From: a virus
Virus record (IMG/VR): IMGVR_UViG_3300028800_000288
Location: 1-25,934 of that record
Strand: one strand, 5' to 3'
Length of the DNA: 25,934 bases
In this document: piece by piece, positions 12,606-21,809 of the stretch
Layout: each line of letters starts with the position of its first letter
Numbering within the stretch: position 1 is the stretch's first letter
Position numbers and translations under genes: made by a program
The notes under the pieces: generated by a model
What the model saw: the letters and a program-made list of their open reading frames with translations, nothing else
Told to the model about the DNA's origin: nothing
The model's database searches: none

Positions 12606-13613
12606 ATGGCAGCCACAAGCACCTCTGGCACGTACTCGTACAGCGCTTCCGTCATCAACATCCTGACGGCATCGCTCAGGCTTGCACAGATCATCGGCGA
12701 CGAAGAAACGCCGACCGGCGCGCAGTTGCAGAACGGCTTCGATGCCTTCTCCGCGATGGTGGCCGGCTGGAGCGCGGCGCAGATCCATGTGTGGTGCGAG
12801 GAGGAGATGATCCTCTTCCCGCAGCCTGGTCAGGTGCTCTACAGCCTTGGTCCGGTGAGCACCGATCACGCGACGCTGTTCAATGGCCTGGCACAGACCA
12901 CGCTTGCGACCAACGCAGCGGCCGCTGCAACCGTGTTGGCTCTGACGTCGGCCGCGGGCATTGCTGATGGCGATCATATCGGTGTGCAGCTTGATGCCGG
13001 CACGAACTTCTGGACCACCGTCGATGGTGCGCCGAGCGGCAACAACGTGACGCTTTTCGATGAACTGCCAAGCGCGGCAACCGCGCCTGCTTTGGTGTTC
13101 GCCTACACGACGCCGCTCATGCGACCGCTCCGGATGATGGGGTATCGGCGGTACTCGCTGACGTCGGCCGTGGCCTCGCGCTACGACGTGCCTATGACGA
13201 TCTGGGCTCGGCTGGACTATCAGGCGCAACCGAACAAGTACACGCCTGGCGTGATCACCGCTGCCTTCTTCGATCCGCAGCAAGGGGAGGGGGAGTACAC
13301 GTTCCCGACCGCCCAACTGAATCTGTGGCCTTCGCCGGCGGACTACACCTATGCCTTCCGCGGCACGATCCAGCGGCCGATCCAGGATCTTGGCTCGCTC
13401 GCCAGCATCCCGGACTTCCCGGTCGAGTGGAACGCGGCGCTGAAATGGAACCTCGCCATGGAGATCGGACCGCAGTACGGCACCACCACCGAGCAACTGT
13501 CGATCATCGATAAGCAGGCCACGCGCTGGTACAGCTTGGCGTCGCAGTGGGACCGGGAGCCGGAGTCCGTGCTGTTCGGGGTCGCTATGCAGCCGGGCTA
13601 CAGAACGCGCTAG
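12606..13613 (+). CDS. P22 gp4-like tail accessory factor / neck protein
   Basis: P22 gp4 binds under the portal after packaging and starts building the neck. The helical core fits: SVINILTASLRLAQIIGDEE, TPTGAQLQNGFDAFSAMVAG, then a beta part with GQVLYSLG, PLRMMGYRRYSL, a TIWARLDYQ strand, a PTAQLNLWPSP segment, and a terminal helix with FPVEWNAALKWNLAMEIGPQ. At 335 residues it is about twice P22 gp4 because of an extra beta domain at about 98-167, shared with 8783 and 13622. The ATG follows the upstream stop directly, with GGGGG as a weak ribosome site. The gp10-like gene comes next, as expected. Confidence 0.78.
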   Translation: MAATSTSGTYSYSASVINILTASLRLAQIIGDEETPTGAQLQNGFDAFSAMVAGWSAAQIHVWCEEEMILFPQPGQVLYSLGPVSTDHATLFNGLAQTTLATNAAAAATVLALTSAAGIADGDHIGVQLDAGTNFWTTVDGAPSGNNVTLFDELPSAATAPALVFAYTTPLMRPLRMMGYRRYSLTSAVASRYDVPMTIWARLDYQAQPNKYTPGVITAAFFDPQQGEGEYTFPTAQLNLWPSPADYTYAFRGTIQRPIQDLGSLASIPDFPVEWNAALKWNLAMEIGPQYGTTTEQLSIIDKQATRWYSLASQWDREPESVLFGVAMQPGYRTR

Positions 13614-13621
13614 GGTAGCGC

Positions 13622-14821
13622 ATGCCAGAGATCCAGTTCGCCGCGCAGGCCTACCAGACACGCTCGGCGCAGCTCCTGTCGCAGCAGTGCATCAACGCGT
13701 TCGTCGAGCCAACGCCGAAGGAAGGCAAGACGCAGCTTCCGGTCTACGGCATCCCTGGCCTGACGCTGTTCTCGCGCCAGGGCGGTGGACCGATCCTCGG
13801 CATGCACGTCTTTGATGTGCTGGACCTGGTGTTCGTCATGTCAGGTCCGGAGCTTTGGTCCGTGACCGACCAGGGGACGTCCACGCTGATCGGCACCACA
13901 AACCTCGGCGGCAGCCTGGTATCGATGGCCGACAATGGCCAGCAGCTCGTGATGGTCGACGGCGGGGCGGGTTGGGTTTACCAGCCTGGCGGCCTCAACA
14001 TCGTCTCGACTTTTACCGCCGTCGCCGGAGACACGGACATCGCGGTCAACCTCACGGGTGGTGTCGGCAACGGCGATACGCTTATCATTCCGCTGGACAA
14101 CGGCGCGACGTTCACCACCACCTCGTCTCAGGCCACCGGACCTGGGTTTACCACCACGTTGGCGTTGAATGATGCCCTTCCGAGCACGGTCACTGCCGGG
14201 GCGGTGATCAAAGACCCGGCGAACGTATTGGCGCAGATTGTCGCACCAGCATTCAAGCCGGCGAGCACGGTCCAGTATTTTGACGGTTACTTCGTCTTCG
14301 ATGCGGCTGGCACCAGGCAATTCTTCATCTCGTCCATCAATGACGGAACGCAGTACAGCGACCTGGATTTTGCAACTGCAACCGCATCGAGCGACGTTGT
14401 CAGGGCGGTGCTGGTCTACCATGAGCAGTTGCTGATTTTATGCACGTATCACACCGAGGTCTGGTGGGACACCGGCAACGTCAACTTCCCATTCCAGCGC
14501 TACGATGCGGCGCTGATCGCCCGCGGCTTGGCCAATCCGTGGTGCGTCACCTCCGAGGACAATACCGTCTTCTGGATGGGTGACGATGGCATCTTCTATC
14601 GGCTGAACGGGTTTGTGCCGGAGCGCGTCAGCACCTTCGCGATGGAGCATGCGTGGGCGCAGTATCCGAACAAGTTCCTGGACAGCTCGTGTTTCACGCT
14701 GGATCAGGAAGGCCACAAGTTCATCGTGGTGAACTTCCCGAGCGGGCCGGCCACATGGTGTTACGACATTTCCACCAAACTGTGGCATGAGCGCGTGAGT
14801 TGGGGAACGCGGTGGGTGTGA
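13622..14821 (+). CDS. P22 gp10-like tail hub protein, N-terminal part
   Basis: gp10 forms the hub beneath gp4 that plugs the channel. Seen here: QQCINAFVEPTPKEGK at 21-36, GIPGLTLF at 43-50, VSMADNGQQLVMVDG at 100-114, VQYFDGYFVF at 217-226, EVWWDTGNVNFPFQR, VFWMGDDGIFYRLNG, and near the end FIVVNFPSGPATWCYD with LWHERVSWG. The recognisable pattern stops there, at TGA 14819-14821, and the missing C-terminal gp10 region appears at the end of the next reading frame. The next frame is in phase, so this TGA is the only break. Residues 135-200 are an inserted LDxGxxF-type beta domain. Confidence 0.8.
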   Translation: MPEIQFAAQAYQTRSAQLLSQQCINAFVEPTPKEGKTQLPVYGIPGLTLFSRQGGGPILGMHVFDVLDLVFVMSGPELWSVTDQGTSTLIGTTNLGGSLVSMADNGQQLVMVDGGAGWVYQPGGLNIVSTFTAVAGDTDIAVNLTGGVGNGDTLIIPLDNGATFTTTSSQATGPGFTTTLALNDALPSTVTAGAVIKDPANVLAQIVAPAFKPASTVQYFDGYFVFDAAGTRQFFISSINDGTQYSDLDFATATASSDVVRAVLVYHEQLLILCTYHTEVWWDTGNVNFPFQRYDAALIARGLANPWCVTSEDNTVFWMGDDGIFYRLNGFVPERVSTFAMEHAWAQYPNKFLDSSCFTLDQEGHKFIVVNFPSGPATWCYDISTKLWHERVSWGTRWV

Positions 14822-14827
14822 GGCATC

Positions 14828-16351
14828 ATGGGGTACGATCTCAATTCTCTGCTGCTGAATCCATCTCCGGCCACGGAGTCGCTGATTTCGATCAATGGCC
14901 TGTCGCCGCCCAATGAGACGTTCCCGAGTTCCTTTACGACGTTCCTGCTTAGCGGATGGTTTTGGCCTGATGGCAACAGTGCCACGCCTCGATTTTCGGC
15001 GGTGTCTGTTGCAGCAGGAACCTCGTTTTTTTACGGGTTCACGTTCGTTCTTGATCCCGGCCCCGGCACCGCAACGCTGACAACTGGCAATGGGTCGGCG
15101 GTAGCTGCCAGCAGCAATGTTGTAAACTTTACCACACCGACGATCTCTTTCGACACCTGGCTCAATGTGTTGTGTTCGGTCAATGTGGCCACAAGCACTG
15201 CGCAGCTTTACATTCAGGACGTGGCCGCGACGGTCTCGTCTCATTCCTGGGTGCAGGGATCGGTTCATTCAGATAGCGGGGCGCTCGCCGGTGTAGCCGG
15301 CCAGACATCGCTCGATCTTATGTGCATTGGCGACATTTACATGGCTGCCACTGCATCGTTCTTTGATCTGTCGGTTGTGGCGAACCGGCGCAAGTTCATC
15401 GATGAGTTTGGTTTTCCGGTCGATCTCGGCACGGCAGCCAGCAGCCCAACCGGTGCGGCGCCGCAGATTTACCTGTCGATCCGCACGCCGGGCGCAGCGT
15501 CGGAAATGCTGACCAATCGCGGGACAGGAGGCGCCGACTTTATTACAAATCCGATCTCCAGTCCCACTGTCATCGGAACGTGCGTCGAGCTTCCGCTCCC
15601 TCCTGTTCTGCTCTCGTGCGGCGCCCACACGGCGACCAGTACGACGTTCGTGTGGGAACCAAATCCATTCGGGGGGACGCCGGATCATTACAACCTGATC
15701 TACAGGAAAGAGGGCGACGTCGACTGGATTTATGCCAGTAATTTGGCCACCACAAGTTACACGGCGACCGGCCTTGAAATGAACGCTGTTTATGAGTGGC
15801 AGGTAGCTGCTCTTCGTGACAATAATCCAAGCGACTTCACGTCCAGCAGCTTCTGTTCTACGGGCACGATCCTGCCGGTACAGCCGGTGCCGAACTCGCT
15901 CCTGCGCTGGCGCGGGCAGGTTGGGGTGAACTGGAAGGGCATGGCGCTGGTCGGCGATGCGTTCGATGGCGTAGTCGGCCTGAGCGACTTCGCCAATTTC
16001 ACTGAGTACGGGAACACGATGCAGTTCCTGGTCACCACCCCGCCGTTGCACGAGGACCGCAAGCGCATCTTCGTGCCGAGGTTCGAGATCGAGGTTGAAG
16101 CTGGACAGGGACTGCCGGATGATCCTGCGATGGGCGGTACTATCCTGTTGGACTGGAGCAAGGATGGCGGCGTTACATGGTCGACGCTGGTGCCGCCGCG
16201 GTCGATGGGGGCGATCGGCGAATACATCAAGCGGCTTCGGTGGCTGAACCTTGGCAACAGCCGCACTTGGGTCTTTCGGCTCCGTTGCAGTGATCCAATC
16301 CGTCGGTACATCATCGGCACCTATCTGGATCAATGGAAGGGCATCGGCTGA
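14828..16351 (+). CDS. LamG-like + Fn3 + gp10 C-terminal domain fusion
   Basis: A 507-residue mosaic. Residues about 15-205 look like a LamG/concanavalin sandwich (FDTWLNVLCSVNVATSTAQL, with a later WSF-like beta pattern). Residues about 257-345 are a fibronectin type III domain (TTFVWEPNPFGGTPDHYNLI, YTATGLEMNAVYEWQVAA). Residues about 358-507 are the C-terminal gp10 region: WRGQVGVNWKGMALVGDAFD, NFTEYGNTMQ, RKRIFVPRFEIEVEAGQG, LLDWSKDGGVTWS, ending in SDPIRRYIIGTYLDQWKG. It lies six bases after, and in the same frame as, the gp10 N-terminal part. TGAGG before ATG 14828 could serve reinitiation. It presumably assembles with 13622 into one hub that displays lectin and Fn3 domains. Confidence 0.75.
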   Translation: MGYDLNSLLLNPSPATESLISINGLSPPNETFPSSFTTFLLSGWFWPDGNSATPRFSAVSVAAGTSFFYGFTFVLDPGPGTATLTTGNGSAVAASSNVVNFTTPTISFDTWLNVLCSVNVATSTAQLYIQDVAATVSSHSWVQGSVHSDSGALAGVAGQTSLDLMCIGDIYMAATASFFDLSVVANRRKFIDEFGFPVDLGTAASSPTGAAPQIYLSIRTPGAASEMLTNRGTGGADFITNPISSPTVIGTCVELPLPPVLLSCGAHTATSTTFVWEPNPFGGTPDHYNLIYRKEGDVDWIYASNLATTSYTATGLEMNAVYEWQVAALRDNNPSDFTSSSFCSTGTILPVQPVPNSLLRWRGQVGVNWKGMALVGDAFDGVVGLSDFANFTEYGNTMQFLVTTPPLHEDRKRIFVPRFEIEVEAGQGLPDDPAMGGTILLDWSKDGGVTWSTLVPPRSMGAIGEYIKRLRWLNLGNSRTWVFRLRCSDPIRRYIIGTYLDQWKGIG

Positions 16352-16725
16352 TGTCTAGCACGACGGGCTTTCAGGCGCCGACGGAGCTCACGCCGGCAAC
16401 GGGTGACCAGCCGATCTCCGCGCCGGATGGCCGTCCTACGTTCTACATGCTGTCATGGATGCAGCGCATCCAGTCGTTCCTCGGGCAGCCAGGCGGCTCC
16501 GGAGGCGGCGGCGCAGGCGGTGTGACGGTGTCAGAGCAGATCAGCATCCTTAACAGTGAGATCGCATCACTCTCCGCGCAGGTGGCGTTACCGGCCGCCG
16601 CGCAGAACCGCAAGAGCAGCATCACTGCGGAGGAGGTATTGGCCATGATGACGAATGCGCCGTCTCTTGCTGTGTCGCCGGCGACGATCGCCGCATTTCG
16701 CGCGCAAATTTGGTTCGGCAACTGA
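16351..16725 (+). CDS. hypothetical 124-aa virion-type protein
   Basis: Starts MSSTTGFQAPTELTPATGDQ; the six residues before this ATG belong to the upstream gene. The N-terminal 35 residues end in PTFYMLSWMQRIQSFLGQ, a short amphipathic element seen in small podoviral tail-region proteins. A Gly-rich linker (about 48-60) and a coiled-coil-like helix (VSEQISILNSEIASLSAQV) follow, then a last helix. It is coupled to both neighbours by TGATG. It may be a trimeric adaptor; function is not known. Confidence 0.62.
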   Translation: MSSTTGFQAPTELTPATGDQPISAPDGRPTFYMLSWMQRIQSFLGQPGGSGGGGAGGVTVSEQISILNSEIASLSAQVALPAAAQNRKSSITAEEVLAMMTNAPSLAVSPATIAAFRAQIWFGN

Positions 16726-18826: not shown

Positions 18827-19623
18827 TGCCCTTCGGCGCTGTGGGAGCTGCTATCGGCGGTATCGGTTCGATCATCGGCGGCATTCAGAGTTCCAACGCG
18901 GCGAAGTCGTCCGCGAACGCGCAGAGTGCGGAGTTTCAAAAGTCGATCGATTTCACGCAAGGCGTCTACAACCAGGGGCAGACAAACCTCAATCCGTTCA
19001 TCGGCGCGGGCACCTCGGCCCTGCAATCGCTGCTCGGATTCTATGGGTTGCCCGGCGGTAACGCGAGCGGTGCCAGCCAAGGCTTCAGTCAATTCCAGCA
19101 AACGCCGTTCTACCAATTCCCGCTCCAGCAAAGCACGTTGGCGACGAACCGAGCGCTCGCCGCGTCGGGCTTGATCGGATCCGGTGGGCAACTCCGTGAC
19201 CTGTCGCAACTGAACGCTGGCTACGCAAGCCAGGGCCTGACGGGATACCTCGGTGGCTTGGGCGGACTGGTGACCGGCGGCCAGGGCGCTGCGCAGTCTC
19301 TGCTGACAGGCGGCAACAATGCAGCGAACAACCTGCTGCAGGGCTACACCGGACAGGGCAACGCGCAGGCGGCCGGTATCGTCGGCTCGAACAATGCGTT
19401 GCAAAAAGGCATTCAGAGCGGCTTGACCCCGCTCACCAACTCGCTTTTCGGCGCTCCGAACACGACTGGTACCGGCTATGCTGGAGGCTCGGTCCCGGGC
19501 ACTGGCGGCTTCATCGGCAACAACGGGCTGATCGGCAAGATTACTGGATTGCTGAGCGGCGGCGGGGGCGGTAGCGCCGATGGAGGCTCGCCGTTTGGCG
19601 GCTCCTTCAGCGAGTACGGCTGA
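18826..19623 (+). CDS. P22 gp7-like DNA ejection / internal virion protein
   Basis: Starts MPFGAVGAAIGGIGSIIGGI, a Gly/Ala membrane-active helix, then QSSNAAKSSANAQSAEFQKS and a long Gly/Gln/Asn-rich helical body with PFYQFPLQQSTLATNRALAA and GLIGSGGQLRDLSQLNAGYA. This is the pattern I associate with gp7-like or T7 gp14-like ejection proteins that leave the head to help form the trans-envelope channel. A Gly-rich C-terminus follows. ATG 18826 overlaps the cupin stop (TAATG), and the stop overlaps the next start (TGATG). Family call is by composition and order. Confidence 0.65.
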   Translation: MPFGAVGAAIGGIGSIIGGIQSSNAAKSSANAQSAEFQKSIDFTQGVYNQGQTNLNPFIGAGTSALQSLLGFYGLPGGNASGASQGFSQFQQTPFYQFPLQQSTLATNRALAASGLIGSGGQLRDLSQLNAGYASQGLTGYLGGLGGLVTGGQGAAQSLLTGGNNAANNLLQGYTGQGNAQAAGIVGSNNALQKGIQSGLTPLTNSLFGAPNTTGTGYAGGSVPGTGGFIGNNGLIGKITGLLSGGGGGSADGGSPFGGSFSEYG

Positions 19624-21809
19624 TGAGCGGCACACTTATCCCCACCATGGTGCAGCCGGCCAATCCGTGGATTGGGGCATCGCAGTTCTACAAGTCGCAG
19701 GCGGATGCGTTGGCGCCGGCGGCCGCGGCTGCTGGCATCGGCAAAACGCAGGCGGAAACGGGCGAAACAACAGCCCGGGCCGGGTTGATCGGGGCCCAAA
19801 CGACGGGCGCCAATATCCAGAACACGCTTGGCGGTCTGAACCTGCAACTCCAGGCGCCGATAATCCAACAGCAGATCGACGCTATCAGGGGAGCGAACCA
19901 ACAGCAGGTGAGCCTGCCGTGGGCACCGCTGCAGTCCGCCGCTCCTGGTGCAGCATCGGGTGGGCAAGGCGGGGGCGCTCCTGGTCCTGGCGCTCCTGCG
20001 GGCTACCTCAGCGGCGGCGGGGGTGGTGGCGCGGCAGCCGCGCCTCCTCCGGTCACCACTGGCGCTGATGGCGTGATGGTCCCTGGCATGGGCATACCGA
20101 TGCCTCGGCAGTGGTACATCGGCTATGTCCAGGCACAGGACAAGCCGGCCGCGCTCAAGCAAATCGCAGATAGCCGGAAAGCCCTGATCTCTCAAATGGT
20201 CCAGGGGACCATGGGGCAGAACGGCCAGGTCGATCCTCAGTTGTGGAATCAGGCGGTCGAGCAGGCCTACAACTCGGGCCTGATCACCAGCACGGATGCG
20301 TGGAACTACTATCAGCATCCCGAGCGGGCGACGAACGCGGTCAACGCGAACCTACCGGCGGGTGACCTGCCTGCCGTACGAGCCGCGCAAGCCGGTGCGA
20401 CCAAAGGCGCGGAGGTCGGCGTCGAGAACCAGAACACGCTCGAATCGAAGACGATCGAGACGTCACCTGGCATCTACCAGCCGGTCACCAAAACCCGTGC
20501 GCAGTGGTTGCAGGATGGCCAGTCCTCGCTGCCGGTGGTCACGCCGACTACCGTGGCGCAAGCACTGACCGGAACTGAGCGTAGCGGTCCCAATGCAGTC
20601 AGCCAGAAAGGGGCGCGTGGCACGAGGCAGATCGAGCCCGGCACATTTCAGCGATACGCGCTTCCTGGTGAGAGTTTCGATCGAGAGGCTGATCGGGTAC
20701 GAGCGTCGGACCGGGCGATCGATGATCTTTGGCGGAAGTACCCGAACGATCCGCAAAGGGTAGCTGTTGGCTACTTTTCTGGCCCGGGCAATGTTGCGCC
20801 GCCGGGGAGCTCGACGCCATGGGTCAATAATAACAACGATGGCAACATGGACGTGTCGCAGTACGTCCAGCGGTTCAATAAGAAGCTCGCCGGCGTTACC
20901 GGTGCCGCTGGAGGAGGAGGTGGCGGCGCAGGGAATGGTGGACCAACGGCTGGGGCTGCCGCGGTCGGGCCGCCGACGCCGACCAAAGGCCAGGAAACTG
21001 GCATGACCAATGACTTGAACATGGTCAAGGATGATCGGAATACGGTGCAGGACACGCAAACCAGCGCGCTTCGGGCCCAGTCAGCGATGTTCAATATTTA
21101 CGATGCTCTAAAGACGCTGCCGGCGACAGGATCGGGGACTGGCGCTTTTGCCGCCCAACGAATGGCGGCGGCAAATGTTATCGCCACGATAGCGCCGGAT
21201 TGGGCGCAAAAGTTCATGGCGGCCACAACCAATATTGATCCGACCAAAGTATCGGATATGCAGCGCTTGTACAAGGAGCTTTATACGAACACCGTCGGCG
21301 CAGAGACGTCTGGTCTGCCAGGGGCACGCTATGGTGCGATGCTGACGAAGTTCTTCCAGGACGCGACGCCGAACATCAACATGCAGGGTCCAGCGATTAA
21401 GGAAATGCTGAACATGATGTTGGTCGGTCAGCAGATGGTGCGGGACTACAGTCAGGGGGCCGCTGGTCATTTCAACAATTCGTATGGTGCTTGGCGTGCT
21501 GATCCTCTTAGCAATCAGTACACGCCAATGACTAACTTCGATGAGAAGTGGACCGCGCCGGGTGCAGTGAGTGCGCCGAACGTCTACGAAGGGGCGTCTC
21601 TCCTATTGAATGGTCGCGGATATGGCGACTGGTCCAAGGGCATGTCGCCTGAACAGCAGACCGAAGCTGTGCGTGTGGCGCACCGTGCGGATCCAGCATG
21701 GCGTCCGGTCCGTGGGCAGGGCAACTCGGCGCCGGCGGCTCCTGCTCCAGCCGCGCCGCCGCCTGCGGTTCCTCCTGCTGGGGTGACGGCCAATGCCGCC
21801 CCTGGATAG
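19623..21809 (+). CDS. internal virion protein with lytic transglycosylase (SLT) domain
   Basis: A 728-residue ejection protein. The N-terminus (1-100) is Ala/Gln-rich helical, followed by a Gly/Pro linker. A soluble lytic transglycosylase-like domain lies at about 310-395: GTERSGPNAVSQKGARGTRQ holds the catalytic Glu (E319), and VAVGYFSGPGNV is the closing GPG motif of the fold. The domain cuts peptidoglycan as the proteins are ejected, opening a local path for DNA. The rest (about 470-700) is helical with no motif I can name, then a Pro/Ala-rich tail. ATG 19623 is coupled to the gp7-like stop; its own end overlaps the next gene by 17 bases. Confidence 0.78.
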   Translation: MSGTLIPTMVQPANPWIGASQFYKSQADALAPAAAAAGIGKTQAETGETTARAGLIGAQTTGANIQNTLGGLNLQLQAPIIQQQIDAIRGANQQQVSLPWAPLQSAAPGAASGGQGGGAPGPGAPAGYLSGGGGGGAAAAPPPVTTGADGVMVPGMGIPMPRQWYIGYVQAQDKPAALKQIADSRKALISQMVQGTMGQNGQVDPQLWNQAVEQAYNSGLITSTDAWNYYQHPERATNAVNANLPAGDLPAVRAAQAGATKGAEVGVENQNTLESKTIETSPGIYQPVTKTRAQWLQDGQSSLPVVTPTTVAQALTGTERSGPNAVSQKGARGTRQIEPGTFQRYALPGESFDREADRVRASDRAIDDLWRKYPNDPQRVAVGYFSGPGNVAPPGSSTPWVNNNNDGNMDVSQYVQRFNKKLAGVTGAAGGGGGGAGNGGPTAGAAAVGPPTPTKGQETGMTNDLNMVKDDRNTVQDTQTSALRAQSAMFNIYDALKTLPATGSGTGAFAAQRMAAANVIATIAPDWAQKFMAATTNIDPTKVSDMQRLYKELYTNTVGAETSGLPGARYGAMLTKFFQDATPNINMQGPAIKEMLNMMLVGQQMVRDYSQGAAGHFNNSYGAWRADPLSNQYTPMTNFDEKWTAPGAVSAPNVYEGASLLLNGRGYGDWSKGMSPEQQTEAVRVAHRADPAWRPVRGQGNSAPAAPAPAAPPPAVPPAGVTANAAPG

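Follow-up and report, generated by a model that had tools for sequence, protein, structure and literature searches.

A gp10-type phage tail hub probably made of two chains, the second of which carries exchangeable modules

Introduction

In short-tailed phages, the β-propeller of gp10-type hubs and nozzle proteins counts among the conserved parts, and it forms the lining of the DNA channel. T7 gp12, SU10 gp17 and the muzzle protein gp44 of phicrAss001 share the same propeller-plus-platform plan, with extra domains inserted in the chain. Structural reports describe tip domains and a fibre dock inserted in the chain of such nozzle- or muzzle-type proteins (PMC9509320, PMC6702177, PMC10172136). 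In the SU10 nozzle, the outermost propeller-closing strand comes from the C-terminal side, the extra domains lie between blades 2 and 3, and blade 1 bears the fibre dock as an extension (PMC9509320). In T7 gp12, likewise a single chain, the fibre dock links the propeller with the platform (PMC6702177).

Here we analyze a stretch of viral DNA of 25,934 nucleotides (hereafter the window; IMG/VR virus record IMGVR_UViG_3300028800_000288, 25.9 kb, positions 1 to 25,934, our record G000), two pieces of which, taken together, share a sequence profile and a predicted fold with the hub family of P22 gp10, also termed head closure Hc3 or “needle head/nozzle” (phrog_578, Pfam PF11134; Pan3, Pam1, Sf6). 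The matched solved gp10-type hubs are one chain, whereas the hub of the window is encoded by two genes with a module between the hub pieces. Likewise, nozzle proteins keep their insertions within one chain, whereas in the window the break in the chain coincides with the insertion, and a separate gene encodes the piece that bears the module. We consider it likely that these genes encode a two-chain gp10-type hub with exchangeable front modules on chain 2. The receptor-binding proteins of Klebsiella phages reportedly combine a conserved virion-binding part with outer domains that are swapped. Phage receptor-binding proteins of this anchor-plus-exchangeable-domain type resemble the present case in the conserved anchor and the swapped outer domains, but the anchor here would itself be built into the hub of the DNA channel as one of its structural pieces. 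In full-text searches of open-licence literature, judged by titles and the openings of abstracts, we found no report of a split gp10, Hc3 or nozzle gene, and the excerpts of PMC9509320, PMC6702177, PMC10172136 and PMC10386132 report no two-gene hub; the split arrangement is provisionally new within the known hub family.

Two open reading frames encode the hub of the window

ORF calling placed ORF1 at 13622-14821 (+ strand, 399 residues) and ORF2 at 14828-16351 (+ strand, 507 residues). The TGA ending ORF1 (14819-14821, + strand) is followed by six bases and the ATG of ORF2 at 14828 in identical phase, so that the two frames joined through the TGA would give 909 residues. In profile searches, residues 3-394 of ORF1 match positions 5-326 of phrog_578 (E 9.7e-72), and residues 360-498 of ORF2 match positions 331-465 (E 2.9e-24). 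The two matches are consecutive, without overlap and far above chance, and the full length of this 486-position family is covered by both chains combined but by neither singly. The first-pass annotation had reported the same coordinates, single TGA, gap, phase and joined length, and had placed the N-terminal part of gp10 in the first ORF and its C-terminal part at the end of the second; all of this is confirmed, including the alignment of the C-terminal residues of ORF2 with the gp10 C-terminus. The one-chain organisation usual for Hc3 members, a matter of gene layout and not of homology, is thus broken in the window, whose hub is a two-chain variant homologous to the family.

Chain 1 (13622-14821, + strand) comprises the N-terminal strand region and most of the β-propeller, as defined by phrog_578 and superposition on P22 gp10, and ends with ...LWHERVSWGTRWV directly before the stop. 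An internal insert at residues about 130-205 (14009-14236, + strand) is absent from distant single-chain relatives, in which the match of the A1 profile, built from seven N-terminal hub parts (N-parts), skips from about 130 to about 205. As placed by reading without superposition, the insert would sit about where other nozzle proteins bear tip domains. A GAGG at 14820-14823 (+ strand), the candidate ribosome-binding site of ORF2 as judged from the sequence, overlaps the stop codon of chain 1.

Chain 2 (14828-16351, + strand) consists of a LamG-like (concanavalin A-like) module (14828-15595, + strand), a fibronectin type III (Fn3) domain (residues 252-349; 15581-15874, + strand) and the hub C-terminal part (C-part; residues 352-507; 15881-16348, + strand). 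The Fn3 domain matches PF00041 (E 5.2e-7, 30.2 bits versus a cut-off of 25), and residues 252-349 adopt an Fn3 fold in the predicted model, with a Z score of up to 14.5 against Fn3 chains. The first 256 residues of ORF2 matched zero Pfam families at E<=1, and hence did not reach the cut-off of Laminin_G_3 (PF13385), which was passed by three of the six same-family relatives scanned (L126, L130 and L132). We label the domain “LamG-like” only, because its own Pfam match is absent while relatives pass PF13385. Its homologues, identified with the A7 alignment and searches, occur in L002, L035, L003, L124 and other loci. Of the insertion content proposed earlier, the Fn3 domain therefore stands on its own match, whereas the LamG-like assignment holds through relatives. 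The next gene (16333-16725, + strand) overlaps the end of ORF2, in keeping with tight gene packing, and the overlap suggests coupled translation. The hub lies within a podovirus-type structural block: upstream are genes resembling those for the portal (E 8.9e-5) and the major head protein (E 3.2e-9), and downstream is a gene of the DNA-ejection family phrog_598 (E 3.4e-27).

Predicted fold of the joined pieces

We modeled the two pieces jointly as an artificial single chain, the read-through window, with 53 aligned rows including single-chain relatives. The predicted model shows that each piece fits the gp10 fold; assembly from separate chains lies beyond its reach. The pLDDT is mostly >85 for residues 1-390 of ORF1 and mostly 80-94 for the hub part of ORF2, but <50 over most of the insert between these two hub pieces, the fold of which we leave uninterpreted. 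The model superimposes as a whole onto the Pan3 hub with a Z score of 41.0 (433 of 445 residues, 2.1 Å) and onto P22 gp10, across the propeller and barrel fold, with a Z score of 38.5 (442 of 471 residues, 2.2 Å), followed by Pam1 (Z 36.3) and Sf6 (Z 35.7); the Foldseek TMt is 0.90 for Pan3 and 0.81 for P22 (8eap). The matches to phicrAss001 (Z 26.1) and SU10 (Z 25.0) are weaker, as are those to other nozzle proteins, and the T7 nozzle was found by Foldseek with an E of 1.1e-6.

Single propellers of unrelated proteins can be aligned with model residues 44 to about 791, corresponding to ORF1 residue 44 to ORF2 residue 389. Since these propeller-only matches reach about 791, the propeller includes the first 30-35 or so residues of the ORF2 hub part. 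From the model, we infer that chain 2 closes the propeller with its last strands and provides the outer C-terminal barrel (“platform”). When ORF2 was folded alone, the mean pLDDT was only 54.9 and that of the hub part mostly 35-58, whereas the Fn3 matches remained clear; the low confidence may reflect the requirement for a partner, or a shallower alignment. No statement on the LamG-like fold is drawn from this model.

Split hubs are conserved among relatives

A scan of IMG/VR virus contigs with the N-part of the window gave 28 loci, and the A1 alignment gave 90 confirmed loci, 80 of which were kept; the C-part (A2) and the LamG family (A7) as queries yielded 14 and 20 loci, respectively. ORF2 had served as the first query for close relatives of the insert, with five pattern matches and none confirmed; the A2 and A7 profile scans worked later. 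After all loci had been mapped with the profiles and identical sequences discarded, 85 distinct N-parts remained. In 53 of them the N- and C-parts lie in one frame, in 19 they lie in different ORFs, and 13 have no C-part in the contig. Among these 13, ten N-parts reach the contig end, L101 is undecided, and L044 and L046 stop at the site of the window with a new start right after the stop, their contigs ending 874 and 624 bases further on, respectively.

The main tree comprises 80 of the 85 N-parts, omitting the fragments L013, L029 and L105, the near-copy fragment L045, and L055. The window falls into a clade of 17 rows (15 split, in addition to L044 and L046) with support of 100/100, across which the two-ORF state is kept. 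Its sister group of eight rows (97/89) contains seven single-chain members and one cut by the contig end. Split hubs outside the window clade are L073, L079 and L103. In a second, quicker tree of 78 rows, to which L122, L124, L136 and L137 were added and from which 11 of the 85 rows were omitted, the split L124 groups with the single-chain L122, and L136 and L137 fall outside the main clade. The split label changes at least five times on well-supported branches of this tree, by a parsimony count that possibly includes losses. The pattern fits one origin of the split at the base of the window clade and further origins elsewhere.

Both pieces are conserved. Compared with the window, the C-part is 57-70% identical in the four other A2 members, and chain 1 is 64-73% identical in the six other A1 members. 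Change in chain 1 tracks change in the chain 2 hub part (r 0.85 over 91 pairs), a correlation that shared ancestry alone also yields. Moreover, we searched 24 records with phrog_578, namely that of the window, 20 others that are split or likely split, and three single-chain controls. No complete Hc3 gene was found elsewhere in a split record, within the bounds that the window record spans only 25.9 kb, that seven split records span 51 to 72 kb, and that many of the metagenomic virus contigs are fragments; an intact gp10 gene at another site, which would have argued against the earlier reading, was accordingly not found in these largely fragmentary records. The split records give separate N and C matches, except G013 (L044) and G018 (L073), which give the first part only. 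The controls G021 and G022 give one-piece matches (2-472 and 2-473, respectively), and G023, which has a large internal insert, gives two pieces.

These data bear on an alternative that we regard as unlikely, in which chain 1 forms the functional hub by itself and chain 2 acts apart from it as a tail fibre-like protein anchored by the old hub C-part. Chain 2 indeed moves, duplicates and swaps its modules like the gene of a receptor-binding protein, and L116 has two copies. However, the conservation of its C-terminal part is similar to that of chain 1, and profile searches found no second copy of the missing strands and barrel in the split records, the two genes of L116 excepted. We thus favor a hub completed by chain 2.

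A search of 50,697 phage records gave 41 with an N-part match and 35 with a C-part match. Each of the 35 also appears among the 40 N-part matches listed, and in each the N and C matches, at their listed positions, overlap or lie within about 160 bases; a wide split was not found among these isolated-phage records at the sensitivity of the profile search. Acetobacter phage phiAX1, considered as a cultured example since its match ran into an annotated carbohydrate enzyme, was rejected: its Hc3 is one 479-codon gene, and the carbohydrate enzyme is the preceding gene. No isolated phage gave a near DNA match to the window. Searches for proviruses in genome contigs gave 42 and 16 pattern matches with none confirmed, hence the host was not found.

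The junction between the two chains

As the first-pass annotation had suggested, we compared the junction across related phages. Chain 1 stops at the same place in the 17 contigs of the clade examined for this, but the stop codon varies: TGA in 11, TAG in five and TAA in one. The last residue is V in 17/17 contigs, preceded by W in 14/17; two of the contigs, L045 and L046, nearly duplicate L002 and L047, respectively. A conserved end with a variable stop codon fits a genuine protein end.

What follows the stop is far less uniform. Where the hub-part gene starts within 500 bases downstream of chain 1, the stop-to-start distance ranges from -1 to +469 bases. Five of these 12 pairs are in phase 0 (the window, L031, L035, L036 and L043), five in phase 1 (L002, L042, L047, L065 and L070) and two in phase 2 (L004 and L012); L042 has an additional open frame inside the gap. 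In L003, the stop is missing at the junction; chain 1 runs on into a LamG-like domain before a stop, and the C-part is its own gene. In L006, as in L007-L010 with the identical N-part, the order is reversed, the C-part gene being upstream and separated from chain 1 by another gene, and in L011/L116 two C-part genes lie about 3 and 7 kb downstream of chain 1.

The first-pass annotation had offered partial readthrough of the TGA as an alternative, giving a mixture of short and 909-residue hubs. The window itself would permit it, as would L035 and L043, since these three of the 15 split clade members have a single in-frame stop between the coding parts (TGA, TAG and TAA, respectively). Programmed readthrough would call for a conserved in-phase arrangement, which the clade does not have: seven of the 12 downstream pairs are out of phase, and in two of the five in-phase pairs, L031 and L036, another in-frame stop precedes the start. 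In addition, the second gene of L006 lies upstream, the stop type varies, and ORF2 has its own ATG with GAGG just upstream. Phase, distance, gene order, the second stops and the fusion in L003 all favor separate chains over readthrough as a rule, and we regard readthrough as very improbable. At first sight, a lone stop between in-phase frames resembles an artefact of sequencing or assembly, or gene decay, but this reading can be dismissed, because relatives from independent metagenomes have the same break with varied stops and frames, and with both parts intact and conserved.

Exchangeable modules of chain 2

In the two-chain hub that we propose, chain 2 is the variable partner. The stretch ahead of the hub part has 351 residues in the window and ranges from 7 to 704 residues across the second genes. 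All-against-all comparison grouped the LamG-like modules of the window, L002, L045, L035, L003 and L124, in addition to the second LamG half of L136 and L137, into one family, and those of L006, L031 and L036 into a second. Fn3 domains are common to the window, L002, L045, L006 and L116, whereas the modules of L004, L012, L047, L065, L070 and others have no detectable relation. In L073, chain 1 is followed by a separate open frame of >300 residues and then by the hub part.

Two pairs of strains point to exchange of modules at this site. L109 and L110 are 95.6% identical across 12.2 kb. In 100-base steps, identity averages 97% outside the module, with a few other steps at 71-89%, but drops to 64-87% within it; at the protein level, the LamG, Fn3 and hub parts are 71%, 85% and 100% identical, respectively. 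L031 and L036 show the opposite pattern, with module DNA 95-100% identical between flanks of 55-88%. At the resolution of these 100-base steps, the edges of exchange coincide with the stop/start junction and the point where the hub part begins. Both pairs are most simply read as a swap of the module as a cassette. The divergent island of L109/L110 could instead reflect fast divergence, but L031/L036 favors exchange. Judging from their kind, position and exchange, the modules probably bind receptors.

The locus had been read at first as the invasion of a conserved hub by one carbohydrate-binding module. That part of the reading does not hold, as the site carries many differing modules and splits recur in other lineages, whereas the two-chain hub with inserted modules proposed alongside it is backed by the relatives, the fold and the strain comparisons.

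Tandem second chains and divided modules

In two loci the division is more elaborate. Chain 1 of L136 contains the N-part together with two first halves, one of the C-part and one of a LamG domain (A7 positions 19-144). The best BLAST match of this half-LamG is the LamG of L003 (E 3.5e-5), and its counterpart in L137 gives 8e-8, both in a small database. Two genes follow, each combining a different front with the second LamG half, which covers A7 from about position 149-157 onwards, and with A2 positions 81-156, the remaining half of the C-part. L137 shares the plan of L136 (L136:1499-6508; L137:3206-7112). The tails of these genes are 79.8% and 81.7% alike within the same slot, but 63-67% between slots. 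A 383-residue module, 86% identical, occurs in the third gene of L136 and in the second gene of L137, so the module has moved between slots. Of other rearrangements, L124 has a gene with LamG and the last hub part upstream of its N gene, and in L116 (5404-8271) the first C-part gene has an Fn3 domain inside the hub part, about where L136 and L137 split.

These cases raise the tentative possibility, which we hold as less than even, of a slot-based combinatorial hub, in which the C-part is a portable plug with interchangeable receptor-binding modules that closes the propeller from a separate chain. If so, the tandem plugs of L116, L136 and L137 would let one virion, or the virions of one clone, carry different modules on the same hub, which would then be a split-protein system for host-range variation. 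The tandem and slot-swapping cases lift the arrangement above a curiosity.

Proposed assembly of the two-chain hub

We propose that a hub of the P22 gp10 type is made here as two polypeptides. Chain 1 would contribute the N-terminal strands and nearly the whole β-propeller, and the end of chain 2 the propeller-closing strands and a C-terminal barrel that, by analogy with the SU10 and T7 nozzles, would contact the adaptor ring. The front of chain 2 would hold the exchangeable domains, LamG-like and Fn3 in the window, and each of the presumed six hub positions would display one module on the tail exterior. We infer that the two chains co-assemble in the virion, and that they are translated one after the other, probably by coupled re-initiation rather than readthrough. 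The split would allow the module-bearing gene to be replaced, moved or duplicated while the propeller around the DNA channel is left untouched.

If the closing strands routinely come from a second chain, a core part of the channel would double as an exchangeable plug for surface domains. Such an architecture would offer a testable route to changed tail display with an unaltered channel, in addition to a natural example of a propeller completed by another chain. The split also explains why gene callers would report a truncated hub next to an unknown lectin-like protein.

Other features of the hub region

Residues 433-498 of ORF2 (window 16124-16321) match the final 65 of the 595 positions of phrog_19101 (E 9.6e-14); this family, of unknown function, may represent a further hub piece with modules among known phages. 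A weak relative of the chain 1 insert (14009-14236) is present in the preceding gene (12606-13613; A1 match of 20.2 bits); the pairing of insert and upstream gene recurs in many relatives, and does so twice within one gene in L006. The gene after chain 1 in L006 (L006:7239-9230) starts like the post-hub gene of relatives and continues as a long repetitive, fibre-like protein, which is cut by the contig end. In L103, chain 1 and the second chain are separated by a long open frame (L103:8937-9633; about 230 residues) that resembles a coiled coil by eye, and the second chain consists of repeats that resemble kelch repeats by eye. Finally, a large protein encoded at 19623-21809 of the window has a weak transglycosylase SLT match just below the cut-off (E 3.4e-4), and is probably an ejected wall-degrading protein.
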